Part shown: in pieces, positions 6,592-60,968 of the stretch
How positions within the stretch are numbered: position 1 is the stretch's first letter
Layout of the letters: every line of letters begins with the position of its first letter
NCBI GenBank assembly: GCA_003725745.1
Contig: RHDP01000001.1
Span: 5,118,501 to 5,182,500 of the forward strand
Direction of reading: 5' to 3'
Source of the DNA: Streptomyces sp. I6
Lineage (GTDB): Bacteria; Actinomycetota; Actinomycetes; Streptomycetales; Streptomycetaceae
Length of the DNA: 64,000 nucleotides
The notes under the pieces: generated by a model
Seen by the model: only the letters and a program-made list of their open reading frames with translations
Database searches by the model: none
Told to the model about the DNA's origin: nothing
Made by a program: the position numbers and the translations under genes

Positions 6592-7133
6592 ATGGAACAC
6601 GATGTCGAGGTGGCGCCGGTCAACCTCGCGGCGCGCGTGGACGACGCCCTCTCCGTGCAGGCCCTCGCCTTCGGCCTGACCGAGGAGGAGGTCGGGATCC
6701 GCCGCCACATCGTGCTCCGGCACCTGCTCTGCCCCGGCGCCCACGCCCTCGGCGCGACGACCCCGGGGGCCGTCTGGTGGGCTTCGTGTACGGGATGCCG
6801 AACGACCGCACCCACTGGTGGTCCACGGTCGTGGAGCCGTACCTGCGCAGCAACGGCGTCGACGACTGGCTGGACGACTCCTTCGTGATCACCGAACTCC
6901 ATGTCCATCCCGCCTACCAGGGACGCGGCATCGGCCGGCGGCTGATCACCACCATCACCGACGGCGCCGCGCAGTCCCGCTCCATCCTGTCCGCGATCGA
7001 CACGGAGAGCCCGGCCCGCGGGCTGTACCGCGCCCTGGGCTACCGGGACCTCGCCCGCCGGGTCCTCTTCCCCAGCGCCCCGAAACCCTACGCGGTGATG
7101 GGGGCCCCGCTGCCGCTGCTGCGCGGCGCGTGA
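6592..7133 (+). pseudogene. GNAT-family N-acetyltransferase, interrupted by an apparent one-base deletion
   Basis: The N-terminal half runs from ATG 6592 (MEHDVEVAPVNLAARVDD) to ALGATTPG, then the frame changes. The remainder is in the next frame as VGFVYGMPNDRTHWWS through the acetyl-CoA motif VHPAYQGRGIGRRL to the stop at 7133. One additional G in the G-run 6765-6769 would give ATTPGGRLVGFVYG and a continuous 180-aa protein of normal GNAT length. The downstream half has every expected GNAT element, so the gene is probably intact in the organism. The substrate is unknown. It overlaps no neighbour and ends 121 bp before proS. Confidence 0.8.
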
Positions 7134-7254
7134 GGGCCCTGCCGTACGCACGGGGGCCGCCCGGGGCGGAGCTGATTTCCGCCCGCCGGTGCCACCCGGC
7201 TAACCTCCTGGGCATCACCCTTTCTTGTACGCACGTGTACGCAGGAGACAATCC

Positions 7255-8949
7255 ATGGCAGCCCAGGTCCAGCGCATGTCCCGTCTGATGGTCAAGACAC
7301 TGCGCGACGACCCGGCGGACGCCGAGACCCTCAGCCACAAGCTGCTGGTGCGCGCCGGCTACGTCCGGCGGAACGCGGCGGGCATCTGGAGCTGGCTGCC
7401 CCTCGGCATGCGGGTCCTGGAGAACGTCGCCCGGGTCGTCCGCGAGGAGATGGACGCCATCGGCGCCCAGGAGGTGCTGCTGCCGGCGCTGCTGCCCAAG
7501 GAGCCGTACGAGGCGACCGGGCGCTGGGACGAGTACGGTGCCGAGCTGTTCCGCCTGAAGGACCGCAAGGGTGCGGACTACCTGCTCGGGCCGACGCACG
7601 AGGAGATCTTCACCCTGCTGGTGAAGGACCAGTGCACCTCGTACAAGGACCTCCCGGTCATCCTCTACCAGATTCAGACGAAGTACCGCGACGAGGCCCG
7701 TCCGCGCTCGGGAATCCTGCGCGGCCGCGAGTTCCAGATGAAGGACTCCTACTCCTTCGACACCACCGACGAGGGGCTGGCGGAGTCGTACCGGCTGCAC
7801 CGCGAGGCCTACATCAAGATCTTCCGGCGCCTCGGTCTGGAGCACCGCATCGTCTCCGCCGTCTCCGGCGCGATGGGCGGCTCGGCCTCCGAGGAGTTCC
7901 TGGCCCCGGCCCCCGCGGGCGAGGACACCTTCGTCCACTGCCCCTCCTGCCACTACGCGGCGAACACCGAGGCCGTCACCTTCGCGGTCGCGCCGGCCAC
8001 CGGGGAGCACGGTCCCGTCGAGGAACTGGACACCCCCGACACCCCGACCATCGAGACGCTCGCCGACCACCTGGGGGTGCCGGCGTCCGCCACGCTCAAG
8101 AACCTGCTCGTGAAGGTCGACGGAGAGATCGTCGCCGTCGGCGTGCCCGGTGACCGCGAGGTCGACCTCGGCAAGCTCACGGACCACCTGGCCCCGGCGG
8201 CCGTCGACCTGGTCACCGCCGAGGACTTCACCGGCCGCCCCGACCTGGTGCGCGGATACGTCGGCCCGCAGGGCCTGGAGAAGGTCCGCTACCTCGCCGA
8301 CCCGCGCGTCGCCCCGGGCACCGCCTGGATCACCGGTGCCAACAAGCAGGACAAGCACGCCCGGAACGTCGTCGCCGGCCGCGACTTCGAGGTCGACGAG
8401 TACCTGGACGTGGTCGTCGTCGAGGACGGGGACCCGTGCCCCGCCTGTGGCGCCGGACTGAAGCTGGACCGCGCGATCGAGATCGGCCACATCTTCCAGC
8501 TGGGCCGCAAGTACACGGACGCCTTCCAGCTCGACGTCCTGGGCCAGAACGGCAAGCCGGTCCGCGTGACCATGGGCTCGTACGGCATCGGCGTCTCCCG
8601 TGCGGTGGCCGCCCTCGCCGAGCAGCACGCCGACGAGCAGGGCCTGTGCTGGCCCGCCGAGATCGCCCCGGCGGACGTGCACGTCGTCGCCGCGGGCAAG
8701 GCGCTGCAGACCGAGCTCGCGCTCGACGTGGCGGAGAAGCTCGGCGCGGCGGGTGCGCGGGTGCTCGTGGACGACCGGGCTGGTGTCTCCCCCGGCGTGA
8801 AGTTCACCGACGCCGAGCTGATCGGTGTACCGAAGATCCTGGTGGCGGGCCGCCGTTCCGGCGAGGGCGTCCTGGAGCTGAAGGACCGCCGCACGGGCGA
8901 GCGCGAGGAGCTGACGGCCGAGGAGGCCATCGCGCGCCTCACCGCCTGA
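7255..8949 (+). CDS. proS: prolyl-tRNA synthetase (bacterial type with editing insert)
   Basis: This class II synthetase charges tRNA-Pro in the cytoplasm. At 564 aa it matches the bacterial ProS with the INS editing domain between motifs 2 and 3. That domain is visible around residues 235-390 ([21 protein letters not shown] and [17 protein letters not shown]). The catalytic core includes [11 protein letters not shown], the motif 2 region [20 protein letters not shown] and motif 3 [18 protein letters not shown]; an anticodon-binding domain ends the protein. The ATG 7255 start is supported by AGGAGA 8 nt upstream. It converges with the minus-strand kinase-like gene across a strong bidirectional hairpin. 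Confidence 0.97.
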
Positions 8950-9066
8950 GCGAGACCGAGGTCCCGGCCCGGCCCGGGTCAGCGGCGGGGGTCCCCTCCC
9001 GGCCCGGGGCAGCGGTGAAGAGGTTCGGGAGGTTCCGTCCGGCACGGGGTGAGACCCCCGTCCCGA

Positions 9067-9118
9067 GACGGGAAGCGGGACGGAACCGGTGCCCACCGGT
9101 CCCGTCCCGCTTCCCGTC
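9067..9118. terminator. bidirectional terminator between proS and the kinase-like gene
   Basis: Fifteen-bp perfect arms (GACGGGAAGCGGGAC at 9067-9081 and its complement at 9104-9118) enclose a second small palindromic pair (ACCGGT twice). It sits in the convergent gap. Confidence 0.8.
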
Positions 9119-9211
9119 GCCCTCCGGGTCTCCGGGTCTCCGCGGGAGCTTCCGTGCCGCCGGGTGACGGCCGGGGCCCCCGGCGTAGGCCACGGGTGCC
9201 TTGCGGGCCGG

Positions 9212-13483: not shown

Positions 13484-16400
13484 GTGGCTAAGGTCCGGGT
13501 ATACGAACTCGCCAAGGAGTTCGGTGTGGAGAGCAAGGTCGTCATGGCCAAGCTCCAGGAACTCGGTGAATTCGTCCGTTCGGCGTCCTCGACGATCGAG
13601 GCGCCGGTTGTACGCAAACTGACTGACGCTTTCCAGCAGGGTTCCGGGGCCGCCCCGCGAAGCGCTCTGCCGGGAAGCCCGCGGCGCCGCGCAAGTCCGC
13701 ACCCGCGAAGCCCGCCCCGGCGGTGGAGGGCCGCGCGGGCGGTGCCCCGGCGCCCTCCCCGGCGCAGGCGGCGCGCCCCGCCGCCCCGAAGCCCGGCGCA
13801 CCGGCCCCCAAGCCGGCGGCGGCCGAGGCTCCCAGGAGTGTTCCCGCGGCACCGACCCCCGGCCCGCGGCCGACGCCGGGCCCCAAGCCCGCGGCGGCCC
13901 CGAAGCCGGCTCCGGCCGCTCCGGCCGCCCCGGAGTTCACCGCGCCCCCGGCCGCCCCGGCTGCCGGTCCCCGGCCCGGTGCCACTCCCGGCCCGCGTCC
14001 GGCCGCACGTCCCGGCCAGGGCCAGGGCGGCGGCGGTGCCCGTCCCGGCGCCCCGCGCCCCGGTGGCGAGCGCCAGGCTCCGCGTCCCGGTGCCCGCCCC
14101 GCGGGCCCGCGTCCGGGCAACAACCCCTTCACCTCCGGTGGCTCGACCGGTATGGCGCGCCCGCAGGCGCCCCGTCCGGGCGGTGCCCCGCGTCCCGGCG
14201 GTCCGGGTGCCCCGGTGGCCCCCGTCCGCAGGGCGCCGGCCAGGGCGGTCCCCGTCCGCAGGCTCCCGGTGGCTCCCGTCCCACCCCGGCGGCATGCCGC
14301 GTCCGCAGGCTCCGCGTGGAGCCGGCGGCCCCGGCGGCACCGGCGGTCCCGGCGGTAACCGTCCGAACCCGGGCATGATGCCGCAGCGTCCCGCTGCCGG
14401 CCCGCGTCCCGGTCCGGGCGGCCGCGGCCCCGGTGGCCCCGGCGGCCGTCCCGGTGGCGGCGGCGGCGCCGGCCGTCCCGGCTTCGCCGGCCGTCCCGGT
14501 GGCGGCGGCGGTGGCGGTGGCCGTCCCGGTGGCGGCGGTGGCGGCTTCGGCGGCCCCCGTCCCGGTGGCGGCGGCTTCGGCGGTGGCGGCGGTGGCCGTC
14601 CCGGCTTCGGCGGCCGTCCCGGCGGCCCCGGCGGCCGCGGTGGCACGCAGGGTGCGTTCGGCCGCCCCGGCGGCCCGGCGCGCCGCGGCCGCAAGTCGAA
14701 GCGGCAGAGGCGCCAGGAGTACGAGGCCATGCAGGCCCCGTCGGTCGGCGGTGTGATGCTGCCCCGCGGCAACGGCGAGACCGTCCGTCTGTCGCGCGGT
14801 GCCTCCCTGACCGACTTCGCGGAGAAGATCAACGCCAACCCGGCGTCGCTCGTCGCCGTGATGATGAACCTCGGCGAGATGGTCACCGCCACGCAGTCCG
14901 TCTCCGACGAGACGCTGCAACTCCTGGCCGGCGAGATGAACTACACGGTTCAGATCGTCAGCCCGGAGGAGGAGGACCGCGAGCTGCTGGAGTCGTTCGA
15001 CATCGAGTTCGGCGAGGACGAGGGCGGCGAGGAGTTCCTGGTCGCGCGTCCGCCGGTGGTGACCGTCATGGGTCACGTCGACCACGGCAAGACCCGGCTG
15101 CTGGACGCGATCCGCAAGACGAACGTCGTCGCGGGCGAGGCCGGCGGTATCACCCAGCACATCGGTGCGTACCAGGTCTCGACCGAGGTCAACAACGAAG
15201 AGCGCCGCATCACCTTCATCGACACCCCGGGTCACGAGGCGTTCACCGCCATGCGTGCCCGCGGTGCCAAGTCGACCGACATCGCGATCCTCGTGGTGGC
15301 GGCCAACGACGGTGTGATGCCCCAGACGATCGAGGCGCTGAACCACGCCAAGGCGGCCGACGTGCCGATCGTGGTCGCGGTCAACAAGATCGACGTCGAG
15401 GGCGCCGACCCGACGAAGGTGCGCGGTCAGCTGACCGAGTACGGCCTGGTGGCCGAGGAGTACGGCGGCGACACCATGTTCGTCGACATCTCCGCCAAGC
15501 AGGGCCTGAACATCGAGAACCTGCTGGAGGCCGTGGTCCTGACGGCGGACGCCGCCCTGGACCTGCGGGCCAACCCGGAGCAGGACGCGCAGGGCATCGC
15601 GATCGAGTCCCACCTCGACCGCGGCCGCGGTGCCGTCTCGACCGTCCTGGTCCAGCGGGGCACCCTGCGCATCGGTGACACCATGGTCGTCGGCGACGCG
15701 TACGGCCGTGTCCGCGCGATGCTCGACGACAAGGGCAACAACGTCGACGAGGCGACCCCGTCGACTCCCGTCCTGGTCCTGGGTCTCACCAACGTCCCGG
15801 GCGCCGGCGACAACTTCCTGGTCGTCGACGAGGACCGCACGGCCCGCCAGATCGCCGAGAAGCGTGCCGCCCGTGAGCGCAACGCCGCGTTCGCCAAGCG
15901 CACCCGCCGGGTGTCCCTCGAGGACCTCGACAAGGTGCTCAAGGCGGGCGAGGTCCAGCAGCTCAACCTCATCATCAAGGGCGACGCGTCCGGTTCGGTC
16001 GAGGCCCTCGAGTCCTCGCTGCTCCAGCTGGACGTCGGCGAAGAGGTCGACATCCGCGTGCTGCACCGCGGTGTCGGTGCGGTCACCGAGTCGGACATCG
16101 ACCTGGCGACCGGCTCCGACGCCATCGTGATCGGCTTCAACGTGCGCGCCGCCGGGCGCGCCACGCAGATGGCCGAGCGCGAGGGCGTGGACGTCCGCTA
16201 CTACTCGGTCATCTACCAGGCGATCGAGGAGATCGAGGCGGCCCTCAAGGGCATGCTCAAGCCGGAGTACGAAGAGGTCGAGCTCGGCACGGCGGAGATC
16301 CGCGAGGTCTTCCGCTCGTCCAAGCTGGGCAACATCGCGGGTGTGCTCATCCGCTCCGGCGAGGTACGGCGCAACACCAAGGCGCGCCTCATCCGCGACG

Positions 16401-18712: not shown

Positions 18713-21700
18713 ATGGGACGCGAGGACCTGGCGACGCTGGTGCGCATCTGTGATCCGGCGGGCCGGCCGCGCGGGACCGGCTTCGCCGTCGACGACCGGG
18801 GCACGGTCGTGACCAGCCATGAAGCAGTCGGCGGGCTCGACCGGATCGTGCTGAGCGTGCCCGGCGGCGGAACCTGCGCCGCCGACGGCGTCACCCTCCT
18901 GCCGGAGGCCGATCTCGCGCTCGTCCGCACCAGCGGGCTCGCCCTGACACCCCTGCCGGTCGCCGTCCGGGACCGGCCGGGGGACGGCGCGTACGTACGC
19001 ATCCCGGCCGGTGGCTGGCGCGAGGCCCGCGTCCTCGGCGAGATCCCGGCCACCTACACCGCCGACGGCCGCGCACACCACCTCCACGGCGCCCTCGAGC
19101 TGGCCGTCGGCACCGGGGGAAGCGACGCCCTGGGGCCGGGCGGCACGGCCGGCGGTGGTCCGGTCGTGGACAGCGCAACCGGATCCGTGGTGGCGGTCCT
19201 CACGGGCACCGCGCCGGACACCGCGCACCCCGCGGCGGGCCTCGCCGTACCCCTGCGTACGGCGGCCGCGCGCGACCCCGGCGGGCCGCTCGGGGCACTG
19301 CTGCGGCGCAACGCCCGCACCGTCCCCGGTTTCGGGGCCGATCTCAACCTCGCCGGAGCCCGGTGGCTGGCCGCGGTGTCCCTCGGCCCCGCCGGGCCGG
19401 CCCGCGGCGCCGGCACCCGTACCGAACCCGTCGAACGCCCGCATGTGGTCCGGGAGTTCGCGGAGTTCGAGGCATCCCCCGCACATGTCCTCACCCTCAC
19501 CGGAGCCCTCGGGAGCGGCCGTACCACCGAACTCGCCGCGCTCGCCGCCCGGCGGGCCCAAGGCGCCGAGGCGGGCGTCTCGATCTGGCTGCGCGGCGCC
19601 GACCTCGCGGCGGGCGACCGCGGCCTGGCGGACGCCGTCGCCCGCGTTCTGGCGCGCTCCGGCCGGGTCGTCGCCGGGATCACGGCCCACCGCGGCGGCC
19701 CGTGGACCGTCCCGGCGGCCGGCACGGAGGCCGCTCCGGAGCACGTGGCACGCGTCGCCCGCGAGGCCGGCCGGCCGCTGTTCGTCCTCCTCGACGGCCC
19801 CGAGGAGATGCCCGCCGCCCTGGCCGCACGGCTCCCCGACTGGACGGCGGAGACGGCGCGCTGGCTGCGCGACCACGGCGTACGGCTCGTGGTCGCCTGC
19901 CGGCCCGCGTACGGGGAGCGGGCCGCGGCACTCTACCCCGAGGCCGCCGTGCACCGGCCGGCGCTGCACCTCGGCCCGCTGACCGCGCGGGAGGCCGAGC
20001 AGGCCAGGGCGCGCCTCGGACTCCCGGCCGGTGCGACGGCCGCGGCGGACGCCCGCCATCCGCTGGCCCTCGGACTCCTGGCGGAAGTGCGGGACGCACT
20101 GTCCGGCGAGGTGCCCGGCCGGCCGTCGCGCGAGGAGATCCTCACGGCGTACACGGACCTGATGTGCCTGCGTGCCGCGACGCGGCTCGCCGAGACCGCG
20201 GGGCACGGGCATGACGGGCCCCGGGTGCGCCTGCTGGCGGCCCGGGTGGCCGGACGGGTCCACGAGGCGGCGCGGCGCTGCCTCGGCCCGGGTGAGGCAG
20301 GTCTCGACCGGGAGACCTTCGGGGACGTCTTCCCCTGGCGGACCGGATGGGCGTCCGCGGTGCTCGCCACGGGGCTGCTGGTGCCCGCGGGCGGCGGCTA
20401 CCGCTTCGCCCACGAGGAGGTCGCCGAATGGCTGCAGGCCGCGCACCTCGACGTGGACACGGTCCTGCATCCGCTGCTGCACCGTGAGGACGACTCGGCG
20501 GTGGACGGGGGTACGCCGGCGCTGCCCCGGCACCGGATGGGCACGGTCGTCGGGGCGCTGCTCCTGCTGGACCGCCGCTCCGGGGAGTCCGCGCTGGCAC
20601 CCCGGCTCACCGCGCTGGTCGACGTCCTCGACGGCATGGGTGCGCTCGGCGGTCTCGAAGTGCCCGACGGCCGGCACGGTTTGGGCGGTCCGGCCGGCTT
20701 CGGCGGGCCGGACGGCCGGCATGCTTTCGGAGGCTCGGACGGCCCTCCTGGTTTCGGCGGCTCGGACGACTCGCACGGTTCCGGCGGTCCTGCCGGCATC
20801 GGCGCACCCGGCGCGGGTCAGGCAGCGGGTGCGGACATCCACTGGTGGGCCGCAGGGCTCCTCCGGGAGACGCTGCTGCGCGTGCCGCGTACTCGCAGAT
20901 ACCTCGGTGTGCTCCGCACCCTCGCCGACCGCATCACCCTGCGCGCACTGCGGCCGGGCGGGCCGCGCCGGACGCCCGGTCCCGGCGAGTTCGGCCCCTC
21001 CTTCTGGCAGGCGCTGCACATCGGCGAAGCGGAGCGCATGGACCTGCTGCGCCGCCTCGTCCCGGCGGACGGGCCGCCCGAGCGCACCGGGACCGGCCGA
21101 TGCGGCGCGCGGAGTGCCCCGGTACCTCGGCCGCAGGCCGCTGCCCGGAGGATCCCGGCGCACGCCGGCCGCCCCGCTATCTGGACGCGGTCGCCGAACG
21201 GCTGGCCCGGTCACCACGAGCCGTACAGCCGCTGCTCTGCCGCTGGTTCACCGACGACAGGCCGCTGCCCGCGGCGCCCGGCGCGGCCATCCGGCCCACC
21301 GTCGCCGCCGCGGCCCAGGCCCTCCTGCACACCCACCGGGACGGGCCGTCGACGATCTCTGCGAGGCGCTCGTCAGCACCGCCCACCCCGTGCCCGGGAG
21401 CTGCTGACCGCGCTCACCGAGGACGAGCCGTCCGCCGTCTGCCGGGCCGTCGACCGCTGGGCCCACGACGACACCCGCCCGGCGCGCCGGCTCGCCGCCG
21501 CCGCGTACGCGCCTGCCGTGGCGGCGCATGTCACCACCCGGGCCGATCGCGACCTGCTGAGATACGCGGCGCTGGCGCTCCTCGCCCGGCCCGCCGACAC
21601 CGCCCTGCACGGCGCCGCGCTCGCCGTCCTCGTCCGCGACCCGCGGACCCGTCCGAGCTACCTCGCGCGCGCCGTGGAGGCGTACCGCGACGATGATCCG

Positions 21701-23715: not shown

Positions 23716-24853
23716 TTACGTCCCCGAGGGTCCCGCCGTGGCCTCCGGGTCCTCGCCCCGGCCGCCCCGGCCTCCGTGCCGTTGCCGCCCCCGGCCTCCG
23801 TGCCCTTGCCGCGGCCGTCCGCGGAAGCCGTGCCGGTCCGCGCCGCCCAGTGGCAGGCCACCGCACCCGTAGAGCCCCCGGCGAGGACCGGCGGGTCCTC
23901 CGTACGGCATCGGCCGGCGACACCGTCGGCAGCGCCCGAGGCGAGGACCTGGCAGCGGGGGTGGAACCGGCAGCCGGGCGGTACGCGCGAGGGGTCCGGC
24001 GGCTCGCCCGCCAGGACCACCGGCGGCACCGCCGACTCCGGCAGCACCGACAGCATCGCCTGTGTGTAGGGGTGCTGAGGGCGTGTCAGCACCTCCTCCA
24101 CCGTTCCCGTCTCCACGACGCGGCCCAGGTACATCACGGCCACCCGGTCCGCGATGTTCCACGCCAGGCCCAGGTCGTGGGTCACCACCAGTGCGGAGAG
24201 GCCCAGCTCGTCGCGCAGCCGCAGCAGCAGGGCCAGGATCTCGCCGCGCACCGAGGCGTCCAGGGAGGCCACCGGCTCGTCGGCCACGATGAGTTCGGGC
24301 CGCAGCACCAGCGCCCCGCGATCACCACGCGCTGGCGCTGCCCGCCGGACAGTTCGTGCGGGTAGCGCAGGAAGAACCGCTCTGGCGGCCGCAGACCCGC
24401 GCGCGAGAGCGCCTCCGCGACCGCCTCCTCCTCGCCGCCCCCGTAGCCGTGGATCCGCAGCCCCTCCGACACCGCGTCGTACACGGTGTGCCGGGGGTTG
24501 AGCGAGCCGCCCGGGTCCTGCAGCACCAGCTGCACCCGCCTGCGGTGCCCCTTCAGCGCCCGCGAGCCGTAGCCGAGCGGCACGCCCCCGAACGACACCC
24601 GCCCCTCCTCCGGCCGCACCAGACCGAGCAGCGCCCGGGCCAGGGACGTCTTCCCGCAGCCGGACTCGCCGACCAGCGCGACGATCTCCCCGGCGCCGAT
24701 GTCCAGATCCACGCCGTCCACGGCACGGGCCGGTGCGGCGCCGCGCCGGCCCGGGTAGGACACCCGCACACCGGTGGCCGACAGCAGGGGGACGGCGGCG
24801 GCATCGGGGGAGGCCTCGCTCCGGTCCGTGCCGGTCTCGTCGACGGCGCTCAC
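23716..24853 (-). pseudogene. oligopeptide-type ABC transporter ATPase (second), frame broken
   Basis: This is a DppF/OppF-like ATPase for peptide uptake. From GTG 24853 the frame gives Walker A (GESGCGKTSLARALLG), the Q-loop and the signature HELSGGQRQRVVIAG. It then switches frame and continues as LVLRPELIVADEPVASLD (Walker B), the H-loop VVTHDLGLAW and the C-terminal oligopeptide-ATPase Cys region (GCRFHPRCQV, CHW). One more base in the run 24314-24317 joins the two. The last part has no stop in its own frame; one more missing base near 23760-23800 would end it at TAA 23716, so the 3' end is uncertain. The start overlaps the previous gene (GTGA). Confidence 0.75.
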
Positions 24854-27942: not shown

Positions 27943-29945
<2,003 letters not shown>

Positions 29946-30153: not shown

Positions 30154-33100
30154 CTACTGCTGAGAGGCCGGCGGTGCCTCCGGCGGCTGCGGCCGCGGAT
30201 GGCCGTAGCCGTGGCCGCCTGGGGCACACGGCCCTGGGGTCCGCCCTGATCCGGCTGAGCGGGCGCCCCGTCCTGCGCCGGCGGCTGACCCGGTTGCGCC
30301 GGCTGACCCGGGTGTGCGCCCGGCTGCGCGGGTTGTTGCGGGAAGCCGGCGCCACCCGGCTGCGCAGGCGGCGGACCGGCCGGGTGCGGCACCGACGGCG
30401 CCTGGGGCGGGGGCGCTTGCTGCCACTGCTGCTGCACGCCCGGCATCGGTCCGCCGTACGGCTGCGGACCGCCGAAGCCGGCCCGTCCCCCGAACGGGGG
30501 CTGACCACCCGGCTGATGAGGCTGACCGTAGTGCTGCGGGGGCTGGACTCCCTGCTGCGGCGGGCCGCCCGGCTGACCGGGGTGGTACGGAGGGTGGCCG
30601 GGGTGCTGCGGCTGCCCGGGGCCCGGCGCGTACGCCGGCCCGGGCTGCGGCTGCCCCCGTACGGCTGGTGGGGCATCGGCGGCGCCATGTGCGGCGGCTG
30701 GTGACCCTGGCCCGCGGACGTCCACAGGCCCTGCGCCTGCTGGGCCCGGGCGAAGTCCTCGGCGACCATCGCCGACAGGTTGAAGTACGCCTCGCGCGTC
30801 TTCGGGCGCATCATGTCCAGGTCGACCTCCGCGCCCGCGGACAGGTGCTCGTCGAACGGCACGACCACCACACCGCGGCAGCGGGTCTCGAAGTGCTGCA
30901 CGATGTCCTCGACCTTGATCATCTTGCCGGTCTCCCGGACCCCGGAGATCACGGTGATGGACCGCTGCACCAGCTCCGCGTAGCCGTGCGCCGACAGCCA
31001 GTCGAGCGTCGTGCTCGCGCTGCTGGCGCCGTCCACGGACGGCGTGGAGATGATGATCAGCTGATCGGCGAGGTCCAGCACACCGCGCATCGCGCTGTAG
31101 AGCAGACCCGTACCGGAGTCGGTGAGGATGACCGGGTACTGCCTGCCCAGTACGTCGATCGCCCGGCGGTAGTCCTCGTCGCTGAACGCCGTCGACACGG
31201 CGGGGTCCACGTCATTGGCGATGATCTCCAGACCGGAGGGCGCCTGCGAGGTGAACCGGCGGATGTCCATGTACGAGTTGAGGTACGGGATCGCCTGGAC
31301 CAGGTCGCGGATGGTCGCACCGGTCTCCCGCCGCACCCGCCGCCCGAGCGTGCCCGCGTCCGGGTTGGCGTCGATCGCCAGGATCTTGTCCTGGCGCTCG
31401 GTGGCCAGGGTGGCGCCGAGCGCGGTGGTGGTCGTCGTCTTGCCGACGCCGCCCTTGAGGCTGATCACCGCGATCCGGTAGCAGGACAGCACCGGGGTGC
31501 GGATCAGTTCGAGCTTGCGCTGCCGCTCGGCCTCCTCCTTCTTGCCGCCGATCCTGAACCGGCCCGAGCCGGAGGGGTTGCGGCTCGACCTGGCCTTGGG
31601 CTTGGTGTTGCGCAGCAGGCGGTCGGAGGACAGTTCCACCGCCGCCGTGTAGCCGAGCGGCGCGCCCGGTACCGAGCGCTCGCGCTGGTCGTGCGCGACC
31701 GGCTGGGGCCAGCCCGCACCCGTGCGGGGGTCGACCGGGGCGGCCGGGGGCTGCTGAGCCTGCCCATGGGGGTGCGGCTGTCCCTGCGTCCGGGCCTGCT
31801 GGGCCGGCTGCCGAGGAGCGGCCGGGCCGGGGACGTGCGGTGGCTGCCCGCCCGGGGGTGCCTGGGGCGGTATCGGCCCGGGCCGCCGGGTTGCCGGGTC
31901 GCCTGGGGAAGCCGTAGCCGCTCTGCGGAGGCAGGGGCTCGGGGGCCGGCGCGGCCGGTGGCAGCGGAGCACCGGGCTGCCGCTCCCGGGACGGGCCCGG
32001 GCCGTACGCCGGCGGAGGGAACCCGTAACCGGCCGGGGGTGCGGCCGGGTCGGGATTCCGAGCGCCTGGCTGGGGCTGCTGGGGCTGCTGGGGCTGCTGG
32101 GGCTGCTGGGGCTGCCGGGGTGCGGGGGCTCGGGGAACCCGTGACCGCCCTGCGGGCCCGCGGGCTGCTGGTGCTGGACGCCCGGCGGAGGAAAGCCGTG
32201 GCCGGTGGGCTGCTCCGGTACCCCCGAGGGGGACGCCTGCTGCCCGGGAGCCGCGGCCGCGGGACGATCCGCGGGCTGCGCCTGTACGGGCCACTGGGGC
32301 GCGGCCGTCGGCGTGGCGGGCGGGAAGGCAGGCGGCAGCGGGGGCAGAGCGCCGCCGGCGTCCCGAGAGGCTCCGGGCGCCGGAGCCCAGGGGTGTGCGG
32401 CGGCCGGCAGCGGGTGAGTGCCCTGCGGCGCGGCCGCGGGGCTGTCGTCCTGCGGCAGCGCGGCTTCGGGGACGGAGCCTGCGGGTCCGGGTCCTGCGGG
32501 TCCGGACCCGGCCGGAGTCGAACCGGCCGGGTCGGCGAACGGCGCGGTGTCTGCCGGTTCGGCGCCGGGCGCGGTCTCGGACGGTGGGGCGGCGGGCAGG
32601 GTGCCGTCCGCATCGGCGCCGTGCGCGGTGCCGTACGGTTCGTCCGTCTCGCGCTCGCCGTGGGTGGCGTCCGCCGTCTCGCGCTCGCCCTGGGCGGCGC
32701 CCTCGTACTCGCCCGCGACCGCCGGGCCGGCCTGGGCGGTGCCCCCGTCGCCGTGCTGTTGCCCGGCAGTGGGAGCCTCCTGAGCGGCGCCGGACGCGGA
32801 GCCCTCGCCGCTGCCCTCGGCACTGGGCCCGTCCGCGTCCGAAGGCCCTCCGGGCGCCGCGGGTCCGTGCACGGCCGCCGGCTCGTCCACGCGGTCGGCC
32901 CCAGCGGCCGGGGGCGGAGTCCCAGCGGCCGGACCGGTCTCCTCCTGCGAGGCCGAGGCGGCGGCCGCCGCCTCGCGCTCGGCGAACTCACGCCTGAGAG
33001 CGGCCGGGGAAAACCGCATCGTCGCGCCGCTCTCGACGTCGCCGCCGCCGAACGGCTGCGCCGCCGCGCCGTCCGGGGCGTCGGGAGCCGGGCCGTCCGG

Positions 33101-35194: not shown

Positions 35195-36524
35195 CGCGTA
35201 CCTCCCAGCGGCATCGTCGCCAGCGCCCCGGGCAGCTGCTCGCGGTCCAGCCGCAGCAGACCGACCCTGGCCGACCGTGCGGCGTGCTCCAGTTCCCTTC
35301 GCACCCCGACCAGTTCGGTGTCCGAGCCGCCGGTGATCCGCACGTGCCCGCGCATCACCAGCGCTCCCTGCCGCGCACCGCGCCGCAGGGCGAGGCTGAA
35401 GGTGGTCGCGTAGGCCGGGGCCGAGGTCAGCGTCGACACCAGCGCGGGCAGCGGCTGCGCACCGCGTCCCAACTCGGGCCAGCGGCCCACGGCGTACGTC
35501 GTGTGCCAGCGGTCGTCGCAGCGCCAGACCCGCGAGGTCTCGGCGGTGCGGCGCTGGGCCGCCCCACCGGTCCGGCCCGCGAGGGCCGCGGCCCTCGGGC
35601 TGGCACAGACCGCGGTCGCGATCGCGGAGTTGAACTCCTCCTGGTCGAGGACCACCGACTGGAACCCGGCTCCGGTGAGCCGGCTCGCCACATGGTCGAC
35701 GACCCGCACCAGACAGCGCTGCGCGCCCTCGACGCCGCCGCCCCGGGCCTCGACGGCCTCCCGGCAGAGTTCCGGGTCCAGCCTGACGGCCACCCACGTC
35801 ATCCTCAGCGCGGGGCGCCCGTGCGCTCCTGCAACGGGCCGTAGGAGAGCCGGGCGACCGCCTGCTGCGGCAGATGCGGCGCGGGCGCGGAGCGCACCTG
35901 CTGGACCAACTGCACCGATTCCACGGTGATGTCGTCGACCCGCAGCGCACCGCCCAGCAGCGCCATCGGCAGGGCCCGAGCCCCGAAGGCGGGCCGCAGC
36001 CCGGAGCCACTCGCCTCGACCCGTACGACGGCCGTGAGGAACGAGCCGTCCCCGAGCATCCCGACCGTGCGGCGATCACGGTCCACGTAGGTGAACGGGC
36101 GCACACCGGGCGCGGCTTCCGCGAGAGGCGCCAGAGAGGGATCCACGTCCGGGCCCGCGGGCCCGGCGGCCCGGCGGCGTGCCCGCAGCCCGAAGGCCGT
36201 GGACAGCCAGTCCGGCAGTGCGTGACCACGCCGCCGCAGCACCGCGAGCAGCAGCAGGGCCGCGGCGACGGCACAGAAGGGGACCAGCCACAGACCGCCC
36301 AGCGCGACGCCCACCAGCACCAGCGCGAGCGCCAGCTCCACGAGCACCAACTGCCGCAACGGGAAGGGGCCGATACGGCCGGCACCGGCGAGGGGCCGCG
36401 GAGTGGTCGCGGCCGGAGCGGTCGGGGGAGCGTCGCCGGACAGGGCGTTGCTGCGTTGCCGCCGGGAAGTCTCCGGGGCCCCTCCGGAAGTCCGCCCCCG
36501 TCGCGAGCGAGTCGCCGTACCCAT
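35191..36524 (-). pseudogene. eccE: type VII secretion protein EccE, interrupted by an apparent one-base deletion
   Basis: EccE is a membrane component of the T7SSa complex. ATG 36524 starts an N-terminal cytoplasmic tail followed by two adjacent membrane helices (LVLVELALALVLVGVALGGLW and FCAVAAALLLLAVL), the EccE pattern. The first half ends prematurely at 35805 with QERTGAPR; the second half runs from MTWVAVRLDPELCREAVEARGGG to 35191. One more C at about 35811 gives QERTGAPALRMTWVAVRLD and a single protein of about 445 aa. Stop and start codons are separated by only two bases, so the break is clearly within one gene. It diverges from eccB. Confidence 0.85.
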
Positions 36525-36703
36525 CGCCGCGTTGCCCCTCGTGTCCGTATGTGCCGATCTCGCACGGGCGTTGACCGGGCGATCACCCTACCTGAGCGTT
36601 GGGGCACCGGTACCGGCAGGCATAGTAGGGGGCTGTGCGGCGGCGGGCCCCGGCACGGGGGGTGGCAACCCGGCCGCCCGGCGGGGAGAGGGGCAGCGGA
36701 CAG

Positions 36704-39753: not shown

Positions 39754-40223
39754 ATGCTGCCAGCGGACGGTGGCGGGGGCGGCGCCGCAAGCGATCTCGA
39801 GCGTGGTGTGGGTGCGCTGAAGCGCTTCCAGAAGCACGTGGACAACCTGCTCACGGAACTGGAGAGCGGGGCTGGCGGCGCGAAGAGGGTCGCCGCGCAG
39901 GCGATATCCCGGGTTCTTTCAGCGGTGCCGGCATGCCCTTCGCGGAGGCGGACGGCTTCTTCAGCCAGTACAACCGCGTTCACAAGGAGCTCACTTCGCT
40001 GTCCAGGTCGCTGGGCGATCAGATCGAGCTGCTGAGGATCGGGGTGCACGCGGCGGACGTCGGTTTCGACAATGTGGAAGAAGATCTGCGGTCTCGCTTC
40101 CACCGGATCCAGACGCGCCTGGGTCACGAGCGCCAGGAGCACGAGAAGCGCGACAAGCCCCATGGTGACCTACCCGGCCAGAACTCAGACGTCAAGGACA
40201 TCGACATCCAGGACATGGGGTGA
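39754..40223 (+). pseudogene. WXG100/EspC-like small ESX-associated protein, frame broken
   Basis: ATG 39754 (GGGGAGGA upstream) begins a helical protein, SDLERGVGALKRFQKHVDNL. The frame changes after AQAISR, and the rest is GMPFAEADGFFSQYNRVHKE through to the stop at 40223. One extra base at the GGG 39911-39913 gives one protein of about 156 aa, all helical with a central turn. The layout and position, before a WXG-type substrate and between two mycosins, suggest an ESX-secreted helical-hairpin protein, although no canonical WXG triplet is seen. It ends 6 bp before the next start. Confidence 0.65.
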
Positions 40224-45342: not shown

Positions 45343-45345
45343 GAG

Positions 45346-47661: not shown

Positions 47662-47663
47662 GG

Positions 47664-48800: not shown

Positions 48801-51800
48801 TCACTGCGCCTCCCCGTGGACATCCGGCATGAGCCCCGTCTGCACCAGCGGCTTCCCGCGCTGGCGGGAGACGAAGATGCCCCGCCCCGGAGGCATGGGC
48901 CGCATACGGGCGCCGAGCACCTCGCCCTCCGCCGGATCACCGGACAGCAGGAGCCCCTGTGCGCCGAGTTCCATCATCCGCTGCAGGAAGGGCTCGTACG
49001 CCGCGCGGCTCGCTCCCGCAGAGTTGCGCGCGATGATGAACCGGACACCGACGTCGCGCGCGAAGGGCAGTTGCTCGGTGAGCTTGGCCAGCGGGTTGCC
49101 GCTCGACGTGGACACGAGGTCGTAGTCGTCGACGACCACGAAGACGTCGGGTCCCTGCCACCAGCTCCGGTCGCGCAGTTGCCGTGCCGTCACCTCGGCG
49201 GACGGCGCACGGCGCTGCATCAGATCCGCCAGGGCGTCGACATGGTGATCCATGCCGTTGGACATCGGCACGTACTCGGCCAGGTGCGTGGCCGGGGTGA
49301 CGTCGAGCAGCGCGCGCCGATTGTCGATCACGAAGAACTTGGCGGCGTCGCCGTCGTACCGCTCCGTCAACTGCTTGATGAACAGGCGCAGCAGGTTCGA
49401 CTTGCCGGACTCGCTCTCACCGAACACCAGGAAGAAGGGGTCACGGCCGAAGTCGGCGAACACCGGCTCCAGATCGTCCTCGTCGATCGCGAACGACACA
49501 CCGCGCCGTGGTTCGGCGAATCCCGCGGGGAGCTCGTGGCCCGGCAGCTCGCGGGGGAGCAGGCGTACCTTCGGGGCGGAAGCGCCTGGCCAGTGGCGGC
49601 CGACCTCCCGCACCATCGCGGTGGTCGCCTCCGACAGGTCGCTGTCGGAGTTGATGCCGTCGATGCGCGGCACCGCGGCCATGAAGTGCAGCTTCTCCGG
49701 CGTCAGACCGCGCCCCGGCACCCCGGGGGGCACGTTCACCGCGGCCTTGCGGTCCAGTTCGGAGTCCATGGTGTCGCCGAGCCGCAACTCCAGCCGGTTC
49801 ACCAGCTGGTCCTTGACGTTGGACCGCACATCCATCGACCGGGACGCGGTGAGGATCACATGGATCCCGTAGCCCAGTCCGCGTACCGCCATGTCGACGA
49901 CCGCCGACTCCAGCCCCTCGTAGTCGGAGCGGAAGTTCCCCCAGCCGTCGACGACCAGGAACACGTCGCCCCACGGCTGCTCCGTCACGGAGATCTCCCC
50001 GCGAGCCCGGAGCCTGCGGTAGGTGGCGATGGAGTCGACCCCCGTGCTGCGGAAGTACTCCTCCCGGCGCGTCATGATGCCGTGGACCTCGGCCACCGTC
50101 CGCCGCACCTTCTCGGGGTCGAGACGTGAGGCGACACCGCCCACGTGCGGCAGGCCGGCGACCGACGACAGACCGCCGCCGCCGAAGTCGAGTCCGTAGA
50201 ACTGGACCTCGTGCGGGGTGTGGGTGAGCGCGAAGCCCGAGATGATCGTCCGCAGGAGTGTCGACTTGCCGGACTGCGGGCCGCCGATGATCTGCATATG
50301 GCCGGCCGCTCCGGAGAAGTCCCGGTAGAGGGTGTCCCGGCGCTGCTCGTACGGCTTGTCGACGACGCCGAGCGGGACGACGAGCCGCCCCGCGCCCTCG
50401 AATCCCGGCTGCGTCAGTCCCCGGTCCTCCACCGGTGACAGACCGGGCAGGAGCTCGTCCAGCGGCGGGGGTTGTCCAGCGGCGGCAGCCATACCCGGTG
50501 GGCTTCCGCGCCGCGGCCTTCGAGCCGCCGCACGATCACGTCGAGCACCGAGTCGGCGAGTGCGTCGTCCTCGGGCTTGCGCGCCTCGGGAACCGGGGCC
50601 CGTACCGCCGACTCGACGTACCGTACCGGCACCGGTGCGGCCGTGAACGGCACCGGTCGGCGGTCCACCGGCAGCGGGCCGCCCGGTGCGACCGCGTGCC
50701 GCCCGGTCGCCCGGTACACCCCGGAGACGTATGCCGCCTTGAACCGCACCATCTCGTCGGTGCCGAACTTCAGATAGCCCGAACCGGGGACGTTGGGCAG
50801 GTGGTACGCGTCCGGGACGCCGATCGCCGCACGCGACTCGGCCGCCGAGAACGTGCGCAGACCGACCCGGTACGACAGATACGTCTCCAGTCCGCGCAGC
50901 CTCCCCTCCTCCAGACGCTGCGAGGCCAGCAGCAGATGGACGCCGAGGGACCGGCCGATGCGGCCGATCTGCACGAACATCTCGATGAAGTCCGGTTTGG
51001 CGGTCAGCAGTTCGCTGAACTCGTCGATGACGAGCACCAGCGACGGGATGGGCTGCAGCGGGGCGCCCGCCGCCCGTGCCTTCTCGTAGTCGTGGATGTT
51101 GGCGTAGTTGCCGGCGTCACGGAGCAGCTCCTGGCGGCGGTTCAGCTCGCCGCGGATCGAGTCGCCCATCCGGTCGACCAGGGTGAGGTCGTCCGCCAGG
51201 TTGGTGATCACGGCTGCGACGTGCGGCATCCGGGACATTCCGGCGAAGGTCGCGCCGCCCTTGAAGTCCGCGAGGACGAAGTTGAGCGTCTCCGAGGAGT
51301 GGGTCACGGCGAGTCCGAGCACCAGGGTGCGCAGCAGCTCGGACTTGCCGGAACCGGTCGCGCCGACGCACAGGCCGTGCGGGCCCATGCCCTCCTGCGC
51401 GGCCTCCTTCAGATCGAGCATGACCGGCGAGCCGTCCTCGCCTACACCGATCGGCACCCGGAGCCGCTCGGCCTGTGAGCGGGGCCGCCAGCTGCGGCTG
51501 ACGTCCACGGAAGCGGCGTCGCCGAGGCCGAGCAGATCGGTGAACTCGAGATTGGCCAGGAGCGGTTCGTCCTCGTTCGCGCCCACGGCGACGCGCAGCG
51601 GCGCGAGCTGCCGTGCGAGGGCCTCGGCTGCCTCGATGCTCAGCCGGTCCGGTGTGCCGTCGTACACCAGGCCGTGCCCCGACTCCAGTCGCAGGGAGTC
51701 CGGGTGCACCACCACGGACAGTCCGCCGCGCGGGGCGCCCATGTCACCGGGGACGATCTCGACCAGCGTCACTCCCTGCAGGCCCTCGGCCGCGGCGAGC

Positions 51801-53001: not shown

Positions 53002-54506
53002 GTGAGTATGACGGCCCCAGCGGCGGCCACCGGGGCGGGCCGGCCGGCTCCCACGACTCCGTCCGGCGGCGGAACCGGCTTCTGCCGGATCACGGTCGTC
53101 GCGCCCGACGGCCGCGTGGACGTGGCGCTGCCCGAGGACGTCCCCCTCGCCGACCTCCACCCCGAGATCCTGAGGCTGTCGGGGCAGAGCCCGGCGGAGG
53201 GCGCTCCGGTCGGGTACCACCTGGTGCGCCGTGACGGCACCGTGCTCGACGGCGCGCGCTCCCTCCTCTCCCAGCGCATCCTCGACGGGGAGCTGCTGTC
53301 GCTGCGGCCCTTCGCCGAATCGCTGCCCCCGGCCGTTTTCGACGACGTGTCCGACGCCGTGGCGTCCGCGGTCGCCCGTGACCGCACGCTGTGGACCGAC
53401 AGCCTGATGCGCGGCGCCGGACTCGCCGGCGGCTCGGTGCTGCTCGTGCTGCTCGCCTTCGTGCTGTGGTCCGCCGACCCCCGCCGCGACACCCACGGCC
53501 TGCCCGGTGTCCTGGCCGGCGTCGCCGGTGCCCTGCTCCTCGCGCTCGCGTGTGTGCGTGCCCGGGTGTACACCGACCGCGGGTCGGCCGTCGCCCTCGG
53601 TGCCGGAGCGATGGCGAACGCCGCCGTCGCGGGGGCCGGGCTGCTGCCCGTGGCGTCGGGCCAGGGCGTCGGCCGGTTGCAGTTCCTGCTCGCCTGCGCC
53701 GCCGTGCTGGTGGTCTCGGTGATCCTGATGACGGTCGCCCCCGGCGGGGACGGGCCGTTCGTGGCGTTCGCCTTCGCCGCGGCCATCGGCATGGTCGTCA
53801 CCTTCGTCGCGATCACGACCGGGATGGAGCCCTCCGAGACCGCGGCCGTGTGCTCCCCGCTCGCCGTCGGGGCCCTCGCCTTCCTGCCGGGGCTGTCCAC
53901 CCGCTTCGCCCGCCTCCCCGTCGGCTTCGAGCCTCCCCGCACCGCGGTCGGCGGCTACGGCGCCGACCAGGCGCCCCAGGGCCCCGTCGACGCCGAGCGC
54001 ATCGCCGCGCAGGCCCGCCGGGGACACGAACTGCTCGTCGGCCTCGTCGGCGGCTGCGCCCTGCTGGCCGTCGGCTCGGCCGCCGTGCTCGGGTTCTCCG
54101 AGGACGTCTGGGGCCGGCTGCTCGCCCTGGCCACCGGCGTCGCCATGCTGATGCGCGCCCATCTCTTCCGCTACACGGCCCAGGTCGGCTGCGCCCTCGC
54201 GGCCGGCCTGGTCTCGCTCGTCCTGCTGGGGCTCGGACTGAGCCTGAACCCGCCCGCGGAACTCCTCGCCGCGGCCCTGGAGGGCGACGGCACGGGCCTC
54301 GACGTCCGGACGGTGTGGCTGTCCGCCGCGGTCGCCGCCGTCGGTGCGGTGATCATCACCATCGGGTTGATCGTCCCGCGCAAGGGCGTCACCCCCTTCT
54401 GGGGCGCTTCCTGGAGGTCGCGGAGACGTTCGTGCTGCTCACGCTCGTACCGCTGTGCCTGGCGGTCTTCGGCGTGTACCACTCGATCCGGGCGCTGACG
54501 TCCTGA
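53002..54506 (+). CDS. eccD: type VII secretion channel protein EccD (3' end frameshifted as read)
   Basis: EccD is the polytopic ESX membrane protein. An N-terminal ubiquitin-like domain (FCRITVVAPDGRVDVALPED, GYHLVRRDGTVLDGARSL) is followed by about ten to eleven hydrophobic helices. GTG 53002 was chosen because GAGGGG lies 9 nt upstream. As read, the last ~30 residues become Arg/Ser-rich after FWGAS. One extra G in 54401-54404 gives FWGRFLEVAETFVLLTLVP and GVYHSIRALTS with stop at 54506, a normal final helix. It diverges from eccC across 220 bp. Confidence 0.9.
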
Positions 54507-55043: not shown

Positions 55044-55080
55044 AAGGGAGCGGTTCCCACTTCCAGGGGCCGCTCCCTTT
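55044..55080 (+). terminator. rpsO-pnp intergenic terminator/attenuator
   Basis: AAGGGAGCGG (55044-55053) pairs perfectly with CCGCTCCCTT (55070-55079), ending in TTT. Read-through to pnp and RNase processing here are known in other bacteria. Confidence 0.85.
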
Positions 55081-55313: not shown

Positions 55314-57539
55314 GTGGAGAACGAGACCCACTACGCCGAAGCCGTCATCGACAACGGCTCCTTCGGCACCCGTACGATCCGCTTCGAGACGGGCCGCCTG
55401 GCCAAGCAGGCCGCCGGCTCCGCCGTTGCGTACCTGGACGACGACACCATGGTGCTGTCGGCCACCACCGCGTCCAAGAACCCCAAGGACCAGCTGGACT
55501 TCTTCCCCCTGACGGTCGACGTCGAGGAGCGGATGTACGCCGCGGGCAAGATCCCCGGCTCCTTCTTCCGCCGCGAGGGCCGGCCGTCCGAGGACGCGAT
55601 CCTGACCTGCCGCCTGATCGACCGGCCGCTGCGCCCGTCCTTCAAGAAGGGCCTGCGCAACGAGATCCAGATCGTCGAGACGATCATGGCGCTCAACCCC
55701 GACCACCTGTACGACGTGGTCGCGATCAACGCCGCCTCCTGCTCCACGCAGCTGGCCGGCCTGCCCTTCTCCGGCCCGATCGGCGGCACCCGCGTCGCAC
55801 TGATCGACGGCCAGTGGGTCGCCTTCCCGACCCACTCGGAGCTGGAGAACGCCGTGTTCGACATGGTGGTCGCGGGGCGTGTCCTGGAGGACGGCGACGT
55901 CGCGATCATGATGGTCGAGGCCGAGGCCACCGAGAAGACGGTCGAGCTGGTCAAGGGCGGCACCGAGGCGCCGACCGAGGAGGTCGTCGCCGCCGGCCTC
56001 GAGGCCGCGAAGCCCTTCATCAAGGTCCTGTGCAAGGCCCAGGCGGACCTCGCCGCGAAGGCCGCCAAGCCGACCGGTGAGTTCCCCGTCTTCCTCGAGT
56101 ACCAGGACGACGTCCTGGAGGCCCTCACCGCCGCGGTCAAGAGCGAGCTCACCCAGGCGCTCACCGTCGCCGGCAAGCAGGAGCGCGAGGCCGAGCTGGA
56201 CCGCGTGAAGGCGCTCGCCGCCGAGAAGCTCCTGCCGGAGTTCGAGGGCCGCGAGAAGGAGATCTCCGCCGCGTACCGCTCGCTGACCAAGTCGCTGGTC
56301 CGTGAGCGCGTCATCAAGGAGAAGAAGCGCATCGACGGCCGCGGTGTCACGGACATCCGCACGCTCGCCGCCGAGGTCGAGGCCATCCCGCGGGTGCACG
56401 GCTCGGCCCTGTTCGAGCGCGGTGAGACCCAGATCCTGGGTGTCACCACCCTGAACATGCTCCGCATGGAGCAGCAGCTGGACACCCTTTCCCCGGTGAC
56501 CCGCAAGCGCTACATGCACAACTACAACTTCCCGCCGTACTCCGTCGGGGAGACGGGCCGCGTCGGCTCCCCGAAGCGCCGCGAGATCGGCCACGGCGCT
56601 CTCGCCGAGCGCGCCATCGTGCCGGTGCTCCCGAGCCGCGAGGAGTTCCCGTACGCGATCCGCCAGGTGTCCGAGGCCCTCGGCTCCAACGGCTCGACGT
56701 CCATGGGCTCCGTCTGCGCCTCCACCATGTCGCTGCTGAACGCCGGTGTGCCGCTGAAGGCCCCGGTCGCCGGTATCGCCATGGGCCTGATCTCCCAGGA
56801 GATCGACGGCCAGACGCACTACGTCGCCCTCACCGACATCCTCGGTGCGGAGGACGCCTTCGGCGACATGGACTTCAAGGTCGCCGGCACCAAGGAGTTC
56901 GTCACCGCCCTGCAGCTCGACACCAAGCTGGACGGCATCCCGGCCTCCGTCCTGGCCGCGGCCCTCAAGCAGGCCCGCGACGCGCGCCTCCACATCCTCG
57001 ACGTGATGATGGAAGCGATCGACACCCCGGACGAGATGTCCCCGAACGCCCCGCGGATCATCACCGTGAAGATCCCCGTGGACAAGATCGGCGAGGTCAT
57101 CGGCCCCAAGGGCAAGATGATCAACCAGATCCAGGAGGACACCGGCGCCGAGATCACGATCGAGGACGACGGCACCATCTACATCGGTGCCGCCGACGGC
57201 CCGGCCGCCGAGGCCGCCCGTGCCACGATCAACGGCATCGCCAACCCGACCATGCCGGAGGTCGGCGAGCGCTACCTGGGCACGGTCGTCAAGACCACCA
57301 CCTTCGGCGCGTTCGTCTCCCTGCTCCCGGGCAAGGACGGCCTGCTGCACATCTCGCAGATCCGCAAGCTCGCCGGCGGCAAGCGCGTGGAGAACGTCGA
57401 GGACGTCGTCGGCGTGGGCCAGAAGGTCCAGGTCGAGATCGCCGAGATCGACCAGCGCGGCAAGCTGTCCCTCATCCCCGTGATCGAGGGCGAGGACGGC
57501 GCCGGCGAAGGCGAGAAGAAGGACGACACCGACCAGTGA
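55314..57539 (+). CDS. pnp: polyribonucleotide nucleotidyltransferase / guanosine pentaphosphate synthetase
   Basis: PNPase degrades RNA phosphorolytically and can add 3' tails; the streptomycete enzyme was also described as GPSI. The 741-aa protein has two RNase PH domains (the first with [14 protein letters not shown], the second with [20 protein letters not shown] and [19 protein letters not shown]). A KH domain ([19 protein letters not shown]) and a C-terminal S1 domain ([20 protein letters not shown]) follow, then an acidic tail. GTG 55314 follows GAGGAGA. Its stop overlaps the next start (GTGA). Confidence 0.97.
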
Positions 57540-58943: not shown

Positions 58944-59725
<782 letters not shown>

Positions 59726-59734
59726 GGACCCCCG

Positions 59735-60187
59735 GTGCGCGCCAAGATCTCCTATTTCGTCACCGCCGCCGCCCTGGTCGTGTACCTCGTCCTGGTCGGC
59801 AGCCGCGGGGTACTGCTCATCGAGCAGGGCACCCTGCTCACCGTGACCTTCGGAGCGGCGGTCCTGATCCTTCCGGTGATCGGCCTCTGGTTCCTGTGGA
59901 AGAACACCCGGTTCGTCAGGAAGGCCAACGCCCTGGCGGCGGAGCTCGACGCCGAGGGGGGACTGCCGGTGGACGACCTGCTCCGTACGCCCGGCGGGCG
60001 CATCGACCGCGACTGCGCGGACGCCGTCTTCGCCGAACGCCGTGCGGAGACCGAGGACTCGCCGGACGACTGGCGATGCTGGTTCCGGCTCGCCGTCGCC
60101 TACCACGACGCCCGGGACACCCCGCGGGCCCGCAAGGCGATGCAGCGGGCGATCGCGCTCCATGCGGGAAGACCGCCCGCGGCCTGA
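59735..60187 (+). CDS. small membrane protein of unknown function
   Basis: A 150-aa protein from GTG 59735, 9 bp after the dapB stop. It has two N-terminal membrane helices (YFVTAAALVVYLVLVG and LTVTFGAAVLILPVIGLWFLW) and a cytoplasmic helical tail. The tail's segment WRCWFRLAVAYHDARDTPRARKAMQRAIALH has the look of a single TPR unit. The function is unknown. It is convergent with the PH-like membrane protein gene. Confidence 0.85.
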   Translation: MRAKISYFVTAAALVVYLVLVGSRGVLLIEQGTLLTVTFGAAVLILPVIGLWFLWKNTRFVRKANALAAELDAEGGLPVDDLLRTPGGRIDRDCADAVFAERRAETEDSPDDWRCWFRLAVAYHDARDTPRARKAMQRAIALHAGRPPAA

Positions 60188-60203
60188 CGCGCTCTCCCGG
60201 GGC

Positions 60204-60235
60204 GGGCACGTGACGGCGCCGGGCACGTGACGGCG
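60204..60235. repeat. 15-bp direct repeat with CACGTG core
   Basis: GGGCACGTGACGGCG occurs at 60204-60218 and 60221-60235 in the convergent gap after the 150-aa gene. The rest of the 230-bp gap holds nothing recognisable. Confidence 0.75.
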
Positions 60236-60417
60236 TCTAAGCGTTCGGCCCGGGCCGCCCGCTCCGGGTGTGCGGCGGCGTGCGCCGGGGCGGGCCCGTG
60301 CGGTGGGGTGGCGGGGCCGGCGTCCGCGCGGTCCGGCCGTCGTGCCCCGTCCGGACGACGGGCCCCGCCTTGTGCGCCGCGGCCGGGGCGCCGACACACG
60401 GGGCGGTTGAGACCGCC

Positions 60418-60968
60418 TCAGCGCTGTGCGCCGTACTCCGCGCCCCACGCCTCGATGGTGTCAGCCGCGCGCTCGAACGCCTCGACGCGCGAGAGGAAGT
60501 CCCCGTTGTGATCGGTGAGCAGGGTGAGCGGCTCGTCACCCTCGCGTACGAGGACCAGCGCCTGCCCCTGGACCGTCCGCGGCAGCCCGAGCCACCGCAC
60601 CGGCTGCTGCGCGGTCCGCAGGGCCTTCACCTTCGCCCACGGCAGGGTGGTGGTCGAGAACAGGGCCACATGCCGCAGCCCGTGCCCGCTCACCCAGGCG
60701 CCCATGCGCAGGATCCGCAGCGCCCCGCAGATGAGCAGTGCGGCGATGCCGAAGCAGCCGGCCGCTCCGGCCAGCGCCCCGGCGAAGGCGATGACCATGG
60801 CCGCGAGCAGCACGAACGAGGCCAGCAGCAGAAGCAGTGCCGCACCTCCGACCCGCCAGGGCCCGGACGGTACGGACGCCGCCACAGATCGTGGTCATCG
60901 AACGGCAGTGCGACATCGTCGTCCGCAGCGTCAAAGGCGCGGTCCGCCGTCAGGAAGGGCAGGGGCAC
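60418..60968 (-). pseudogene. small membrane protein of unknown function (possible PH-like domain), frame broken
   Basis: GTG 60968 (GAGGA upstream) begins PLPFLTADRAFDAADDDVAL and FDDHDLWRRPYRPGP. One extra base in the GGG 60859-60861 then joins it to WRVGGAALLLLLASFVLLAAM, two membrane helices, and a C-terminal globular part with FSTTTLPWAKVKALRTAQQP and ALVLVREGDEPLTLLTDHNG. That part resembles the PH-like (YdbT-type) fold, though this is only a visual impression. The corrected protein is about 183 aa. It is on the minus strand downstream of another small membrane-protein gene. Confidence 0.7.

Follow-up and report, generated by a model that had tools for sequence, protein, structure and literature searches.

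In a 64,000-base window of the genome of Streptomyces sp. I6 (bases 5118501-5182500 of contig 1, from an assembly of 7.05 Mb in two contigs), the reading frames of a dozen genes are disturbed by the loss of single bases, mostly beside runs of G or C. Judged from sequence comparison, these one-base losses are almost certainly consensus errors of the assembly produced by under-calling of G/C homopolymers, and not the organism's own; in the bacterium itself, the genes that appear broken are probably whole. That systematic under-calling and not decay was at work had been proposed in the original prediction, and a bias towards losses, a rise in losses with run length, disagreement between rRNA copies, the codon-position pattern of substitutions and the lack of nonsense changes on the shortest branch all point the same way.

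The genus survey took in 101 genomes, the present one and 100 others out of a larger group, and 97 of them reach 90% completeness with no more than 5% contamination. Relatives were taken from the best 80 loci, among which the nearest are Streptomyces pacificus CWH03 and Streptomyces wuyuanensis CGMCC 4.7042. Because the searches covered part of the group, there may be a relative closer than these two. Most of the window is collinear with both, and its three-way alignment has 58 blocks and 55,551 bases, outside which lie the first 12 bases, about 40827-48839 and everything past 63576. Wider data came from 400 kb more of contig 1 and the corresponding stretches of both relatives, and this wider three-way alignment spans 270,221 bases at 93.4% identity to S. 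pacificus and 91.6% to S. wuyuanensis. The G+C content of the sequence is about 72%.

Direction and context of the losses

Proteins of S. pacificus were aligned to the window with frame steps allowed, using S. wuyuanensis as the control. The original prediction was headed 'at least fifteen' losses and listed twenty in its text; all twenty were recovered as -1 steps, each absent from S. wuyuanensis at that place. Nineteen of them fall within 12 bases of the coordinate first given, and the exception, 21172, maps to 21119 in a badly alignable linker. The scoring took in 37 gene models, 12 of which contain such steps and 25 none in this genome; two further models were left out of the scoring because their coverage was too low. 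Altogether the present genome has 25 frame steps in the window, comprising the 20 listed, a further -1 loss at 36538 in eccE that had not been listed, and four that were discounted. Those at 18655 (+1) and 52988 (-1) are also present in S. wuyuanensis and thus belong to S. pacificus or its start choice, and those at 23756 (-1) and 60223 (+1) are located where the gene ends are not conserved. Five steps are peculiar to the control, namely a -2 in gene 39838, three steps in gene 60418 and a -1 in gene 25818 at residue 7. In translated searches a frame switch is directly visible in the GNAT, solute-binding, MinD/ParA-like, 39838, eccC, eccD and dapB genes; in the ABC transporter, eccE and 60418 genes a single part passed the identity filter.

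An event was assigned to a branch only where the other two genomes concur on gene, strand and phase (the coding rule). Over the 270 kb, the present genome then carries 51 coding losses and one gain (215,784 columns, binomial p 2e-14), compared with one loss and one gain in S. pacificus (204,498 columns) and two losses and one gain in S. wuyuanensis (205,454 columns). Restricting these to isolated events, with no other gap within six columns, leaves 46 losses and one gain, one and none, and two and one, respectively. Clean events, defined independently of gene models by 15 columns without gaps on either side and an identity of 70% or more, number 74 losses and 5 gains in the present genome, 17 and 24 in S. 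pacificus, and 28 and 25 in S. wuyuanensis. The one-base events are thus predominantly losses, as under-calling predicts, and the bias reaches beyond the window, inside which 18 of the 74 clean losses lie. Within the window, clean isolated events amount to 18 losses and no gains here, one and five in S. pacificus, and seven of each in S. wuyuanensis; the coding rule gives 13 losses (10 isolated) and no gains, and omits infB because the simple gene caller left its low-complexity part unassigned. These counts are used for the comparison of sign because the run-length table under-counts gains, a run being dropped whenever a gap is placed at its left edge.

The run-length table was built from runs that are identical in both relatives and have matching flanks. 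Over the 270 kb, G/C runs of three, four, five, six and seven bases are one base short here in 3/4,239, 7/787, 13/182, 6/23 and 1/1 cases, so that the frequency climbs through 0.07, 0.9, 7.1 and 26% for lengths three to six, as expected of under-calling. Among runs of at least four, one of 967 is short in S. pacificus and two of 968 in S. wuyuanensis (one of them by three bases), or 3/1,935 for the relatives pooled. Comparison with orthologous runs, one of the checks originally suggested, thus finds runs that are shorter here, and more often so as their length increases. The claimed G/C-run context also held: 69 of the 74 clean losses adjoin a G/C run of at least three (18.4% of positions expected), and 55 adjoin one of at least four, against 5.7% of positions.

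In the proposed mechanism, G/C homopolymers were read one base too short, the more often the longer the true run, with a steep climb, as happens when high-GC genomes are assembled from Nanopore reads only or from PacBio reads with too little polishing. Every under-called run would shift the reading frame of a gene that is intact in other respects, exactly three under-calls in one gene would regain the frame and leave it locally garbled, and the reads would be expected to show the longer runs. The platform was probably a long-read one; the completeness of 87.42% in two contigs is no more than suggestive of long-read assembly without accurate polishing.

rRNA copies and alternative explanations

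The rRNA operons provide an internal control. Matches to 23S occur at six places in the genome. A search for 16S in the genome gave no match and the fetched rRNA stretches are masked on that side, and the comparison was therefore confined to the unmasked 23S/5S part; S. wuyuanensis, for which the search returned no 23S match, was left out. Of the five copies in which a six-G run of 23S is readable here, two have six bases and three have five; the run is six bases long in the S. pacificus copy and in the two copies of genome G005. In 5S, one of six copies here has five bases in a run of six G that is complete in both G005 copies. Four of the 11 readable copies of the two runs are thus one base short, as if identical true sequences had been called differently, with the limit that real differences between copies are possible in principle and that one operon is divergent. 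None of the four- and five-base rRNA runs in common with G005 is shortened in any readable copy.

The divergent operon (contig 1, 1141700-1147700) deviates from the other readable copies in a pair of 23S segments and in the 23S-5S spacer, which suggests, from its sequence, an rRNA copy of separate origin. Two other operons differ by single bases inside 23S.

Real pseudogenisation, meaning true frameshifts in a decaying genome, would account for frames that are broken in the sequence as given and for genes with losses being on average less constrained than unhit genes, but it is very improbable. If frames had been lost long ago, downstream substitutions would have ceased to favour the old third codon position. 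The third-position share is 59.7% in 31,640 shifted bases and 59.8% in 29,287 upstream bases (p 0.56), the same pattern before and after the losses and no evolutionary trace of frame loss; this test reaches long-standing loss, the very recent loss of a few genes being outside its reach. The mixture of nonsense changes and gains expected of decay was not found, as in-frame nonsense changes number 0 in 71,489 codons here (1 in 67,702 in S. pacificus and 1 in 67,881 in S. wuyuanensis) and a single gain accompanies the 51 coding losses. Decay would also have to affect infB and dapB, which are essential genes and, as originally pointed out, both carry -1 losses, to shorten rRNA runs in some copies only, and to produce, by extrapolation, roughly 1,400 coding frameshifts genome-wide.

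A mutator lineage slipping in G/C runs, for example through loss of the mismatch-repair nuclease NucS, would likewise give losses that climb with run length, as biological slippage generally does. Slippage is also expected to add bases, however, and a mutator should raise the substitution rate, whereas the branch of the present genome is the shortest of the three, with 4,791 substitutions in 262,602 polarised columns against 9,777 in S. pacificus and 14,889 in S. wuyuanensis. Transitions on it are not in excess (2,367 to 2,424), and a NucS domain is present in the genome in a frame without a stop. We regard this explanation as highly unlikely. On the codon-position pattern, the branch substitutions, the nonsense counts and the NucS domain, long-standing decay and a mutator are both rejected.

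Programmed frameshifting or transcriptional slippage could yield working proteins from such genes, and homopolymers, in which most of the losses occur, are the usual slippage sites. We give this almost no credence: both closest relatives read the genes in frame at the listed places, where a programmed site would be conserved, and losses also lie in unrelated genes, rRNA and intergenic DNA, where such a mechanism has no role.

To see whether the signature recurs in other genomes of low completeness and few contigs, frame switches were also compared over about 20 kb in seven other Streptomyces genomes and S. wuyuanensis. In this small sample there is one switch, in genome G082, against three here; four near-complete genomes and S. 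wuyuanensis have none, nor have G079 and G010, for which fewer residues were compared. The switch in G082 (contig 1, 4793001-4813000; two contigs, completeness 94%) lies in an eccC homologue and is possibly the same artefact.

Several observations count against homopolymer under-calling. Neither relative has a long run across the sites at 21339 and 35815, and five of the 74 clean losses have no adjoining G/C run of at least three. The window alone has two short runs among 195 G/C runs of at least four in the strict table, so that the length law draws its support from the 270 kb as a whole. As a raw count, six-base runs are no fewer here than in S. wuyuanensis (83 here, 82 there and 138 in S. 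pacificus); counting G/C runs alone was dropped as an uninformative indicator because such runs are equally few in S. wuyuanensis. The bias is weaker in columns not called coding, at 59 losses to 26 gains (43 to 9 when isolated). Genes with losses are less constrained than unhit genes both before and after the loss (third-position share 60% vs 65.6%; downstream vs unhit, p 3e-6). Losses are unevenly spread along the contig compared with a constant rate (p 0.019), which might stem from uneven read depth. Low completeness alone is no proof, as G079 (78%, one contig) has no frame switch in 2,854 residues. There is a slim chance that a minority of the losses, such as those outside long runs at 21339 and 35815, are real recent mutations and that a few genes are truly frameshifted.

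Affected genes and their surroundings

The positions of the losses are given in Table 1. Support is weakest for 21172, for 32124, which shows at the protein level only, for 30654 and 31905, which fall in gap-rich columns, and for 39911, in a gene 58% identical.

Table 1. One-base losses in the window (positions counted from its first base)
Gene or region	Position	Strand	Evidence
GNAT acetyltransferase gene (6592-7133)	6763..6766	+	frame switch between 6762 and 6768, -1 step, DNA gap; GNAT match in relative
infB (13484-16570), loss 1 of 3	13646..13653	+	-1 step, DNA gap; IF-2 domains
infB, loss 2 of 3	14203..14214	+	-1 step, DNA gap
infB, loss 3 of 3, frame regained afterwards	14283..14288	+	-1 step, DNA gap
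Long gene with trypsin-like domain (18713-22447), poorly placed loss	21119..21172	+	-1 step at 21119; several gaps at 21088-21119
18713-22447 gene, loss 2; no long run in relatives	21337..21343	+	-1 step, DNA gap
18713-22447 gene, loss 3	21386..21390	+	five-C run in both relatives, four here; -1 step, DNA gap
Oligopeptide ABC transporter ATPase gene (23725-24976)	24314..24319	-	-1 step, DNA gap; ABC_tran and oligo_HPY in relative
Solute-binding protein gene (27943-29945)	29513..29527	-	frame switch, -1 step; SBP_bac_5
MinD/ParA-like gene (about 30133-33514), close to 3' end	30221..30224	-	-1 step, DNA gap; CbiA and AAA_31 in relative
MinD/ParA-like gene, gap-rich columns	30652..30657	-	-1 step, DNA gap
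MinD/ParA-like gene	31875..31884	-	-1 step, DNA gap
MinD/ParA-like gene, gap-rich columns	31895..31906	-	-1 step, DNA gap
MinD/ParA-like gene	32119..32124	-	-1 step at protein level only
Type VII secretion gene eccE (about 35191-36554)	35811..35816	-	-1 step, DNA gap; EccE in relative
eccE, close to 5' end of reading frame, unlisted	36535..36538	-	five-C run in both relatives, four here; -1 step, DNA gap
Small weakly conserved gene (39754-40223)	39911..39913	+	translated search, -1 step; no Pfam match
eccC (48840-52780), cut into two frames	50467..50473	-	frame switch, -1 step, DNA gap; FtsK/SpoIIIE domain
eccD (about 53122-54506), close to 3' end	54401..54406	+	translated search, -1 step, DNA gap; EccD and YukD in relative
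Intergenic G run between 95-aa gene (54747-55034) and 741-aa gene (55314-57539)	55070..55071	+	DNA gap
dapB (58974-59725)	59463..59468	+	frame switch, -1 step, DNA gap; DapB_N and DapB_C in relative
Hypothetical gene (60418-60968), close to 5' end	60858..60859	-	-1 step, DNA gap

The name eccC is assigned from the FtsK/SpoIIIE domain and the neighbouring genes. The 95- and 741-aa genes we take, by their position, to be rpsO and pnp, and the loss in the G run between them demonstrates that noncoding runs are affected too.

Among the type VII secretion genes, the G+C content falls to 58-64% at 42000-47999, compared with about 72% for the window. S. pacificus aligns to this stretch in pieces only (72-88%) and S. 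wuyuanensis hardly at all. Pfam gave no match for the frames of 771, 215 and 168 aa tested there, or for the 587-aa frame at 40230-41993. A segment at 33995-34231 matches, over 216-237 bases, DNA near the eccC match in four other Streptomyces loci (81-85%); in the present genome it lies about 15 kb from eccC.

Extent, precedents and consequences for annotation

Of 200 well-covered gene models, 33 (about one in six) contain at least one loss, in line with the forecast that any annotation would include false pseudogenes and split genes, and extrapolation gives about 1,400 coding losses genome-wide. The gene-model count has 38 genes with losses, 27 of them hit once, 10 twice and one four times; infB is missing from it because the low-complexity part of that gene was not called, and among the four losses counted in the 18713 gene one gap is doubtful. 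The infB and 18713 genes, as aligned, have three losses each and regain their frame. Selection for compensation was considered for such genes and discarded, as multiples of three are not favoured.

Homopolymer under-calling is an already known type of artefact and has a precedent in Streptomyces. The PacBio-assembled and polished genome of S. albus SM254 still contained 205 indels that had to be corrected, almost all of them within homopolymers of G or C (PMC4832174). It resembles the present case as a high-GC Streptomyces with that indel context, the sign of the errors lying outside the comparison; it differs in that its 205 indels, in 7.17 Mb, were Illumina-corrected, whereas the 1,400 extrapolated here are coding and uncorrected. 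In Nanopore reads, homopolymers of C and G are called less well than those of A and T, mostly with base losses; deletions prevail in longer runs and high-GC species fare worst, as described in that study (PMC8486125), although the errors there are in reads and here in an assembly consensus. For long-read assemblies of small genomes, a paper on a comparative tool (Kastor, PMC12007338) describes false pseudogenes making up 23.3% of genes in an example before correction, with deletion errors commonest after runs of four to five; the errors of that example are mostly at A/T runs, whereas those found here are at G/C runs in a sequence of 72% G+C.

No claim that genes of this strain are lost, split, pseudogenes or in unusual frames should be based on the assembly in its present form, and its completeness score and searches based on its whole proteins are probably affected too. 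Genes with exactly three losses deserve separate mention. The infB reading frame stays open but is locally garbled, being 83.1% identical to the relative when read straight over its full length and 98.8% identical over matched residues when frame steps are allowed, and genes of this kind would pass into alignments unflagged, carrying an incorrect stretch in their interior.

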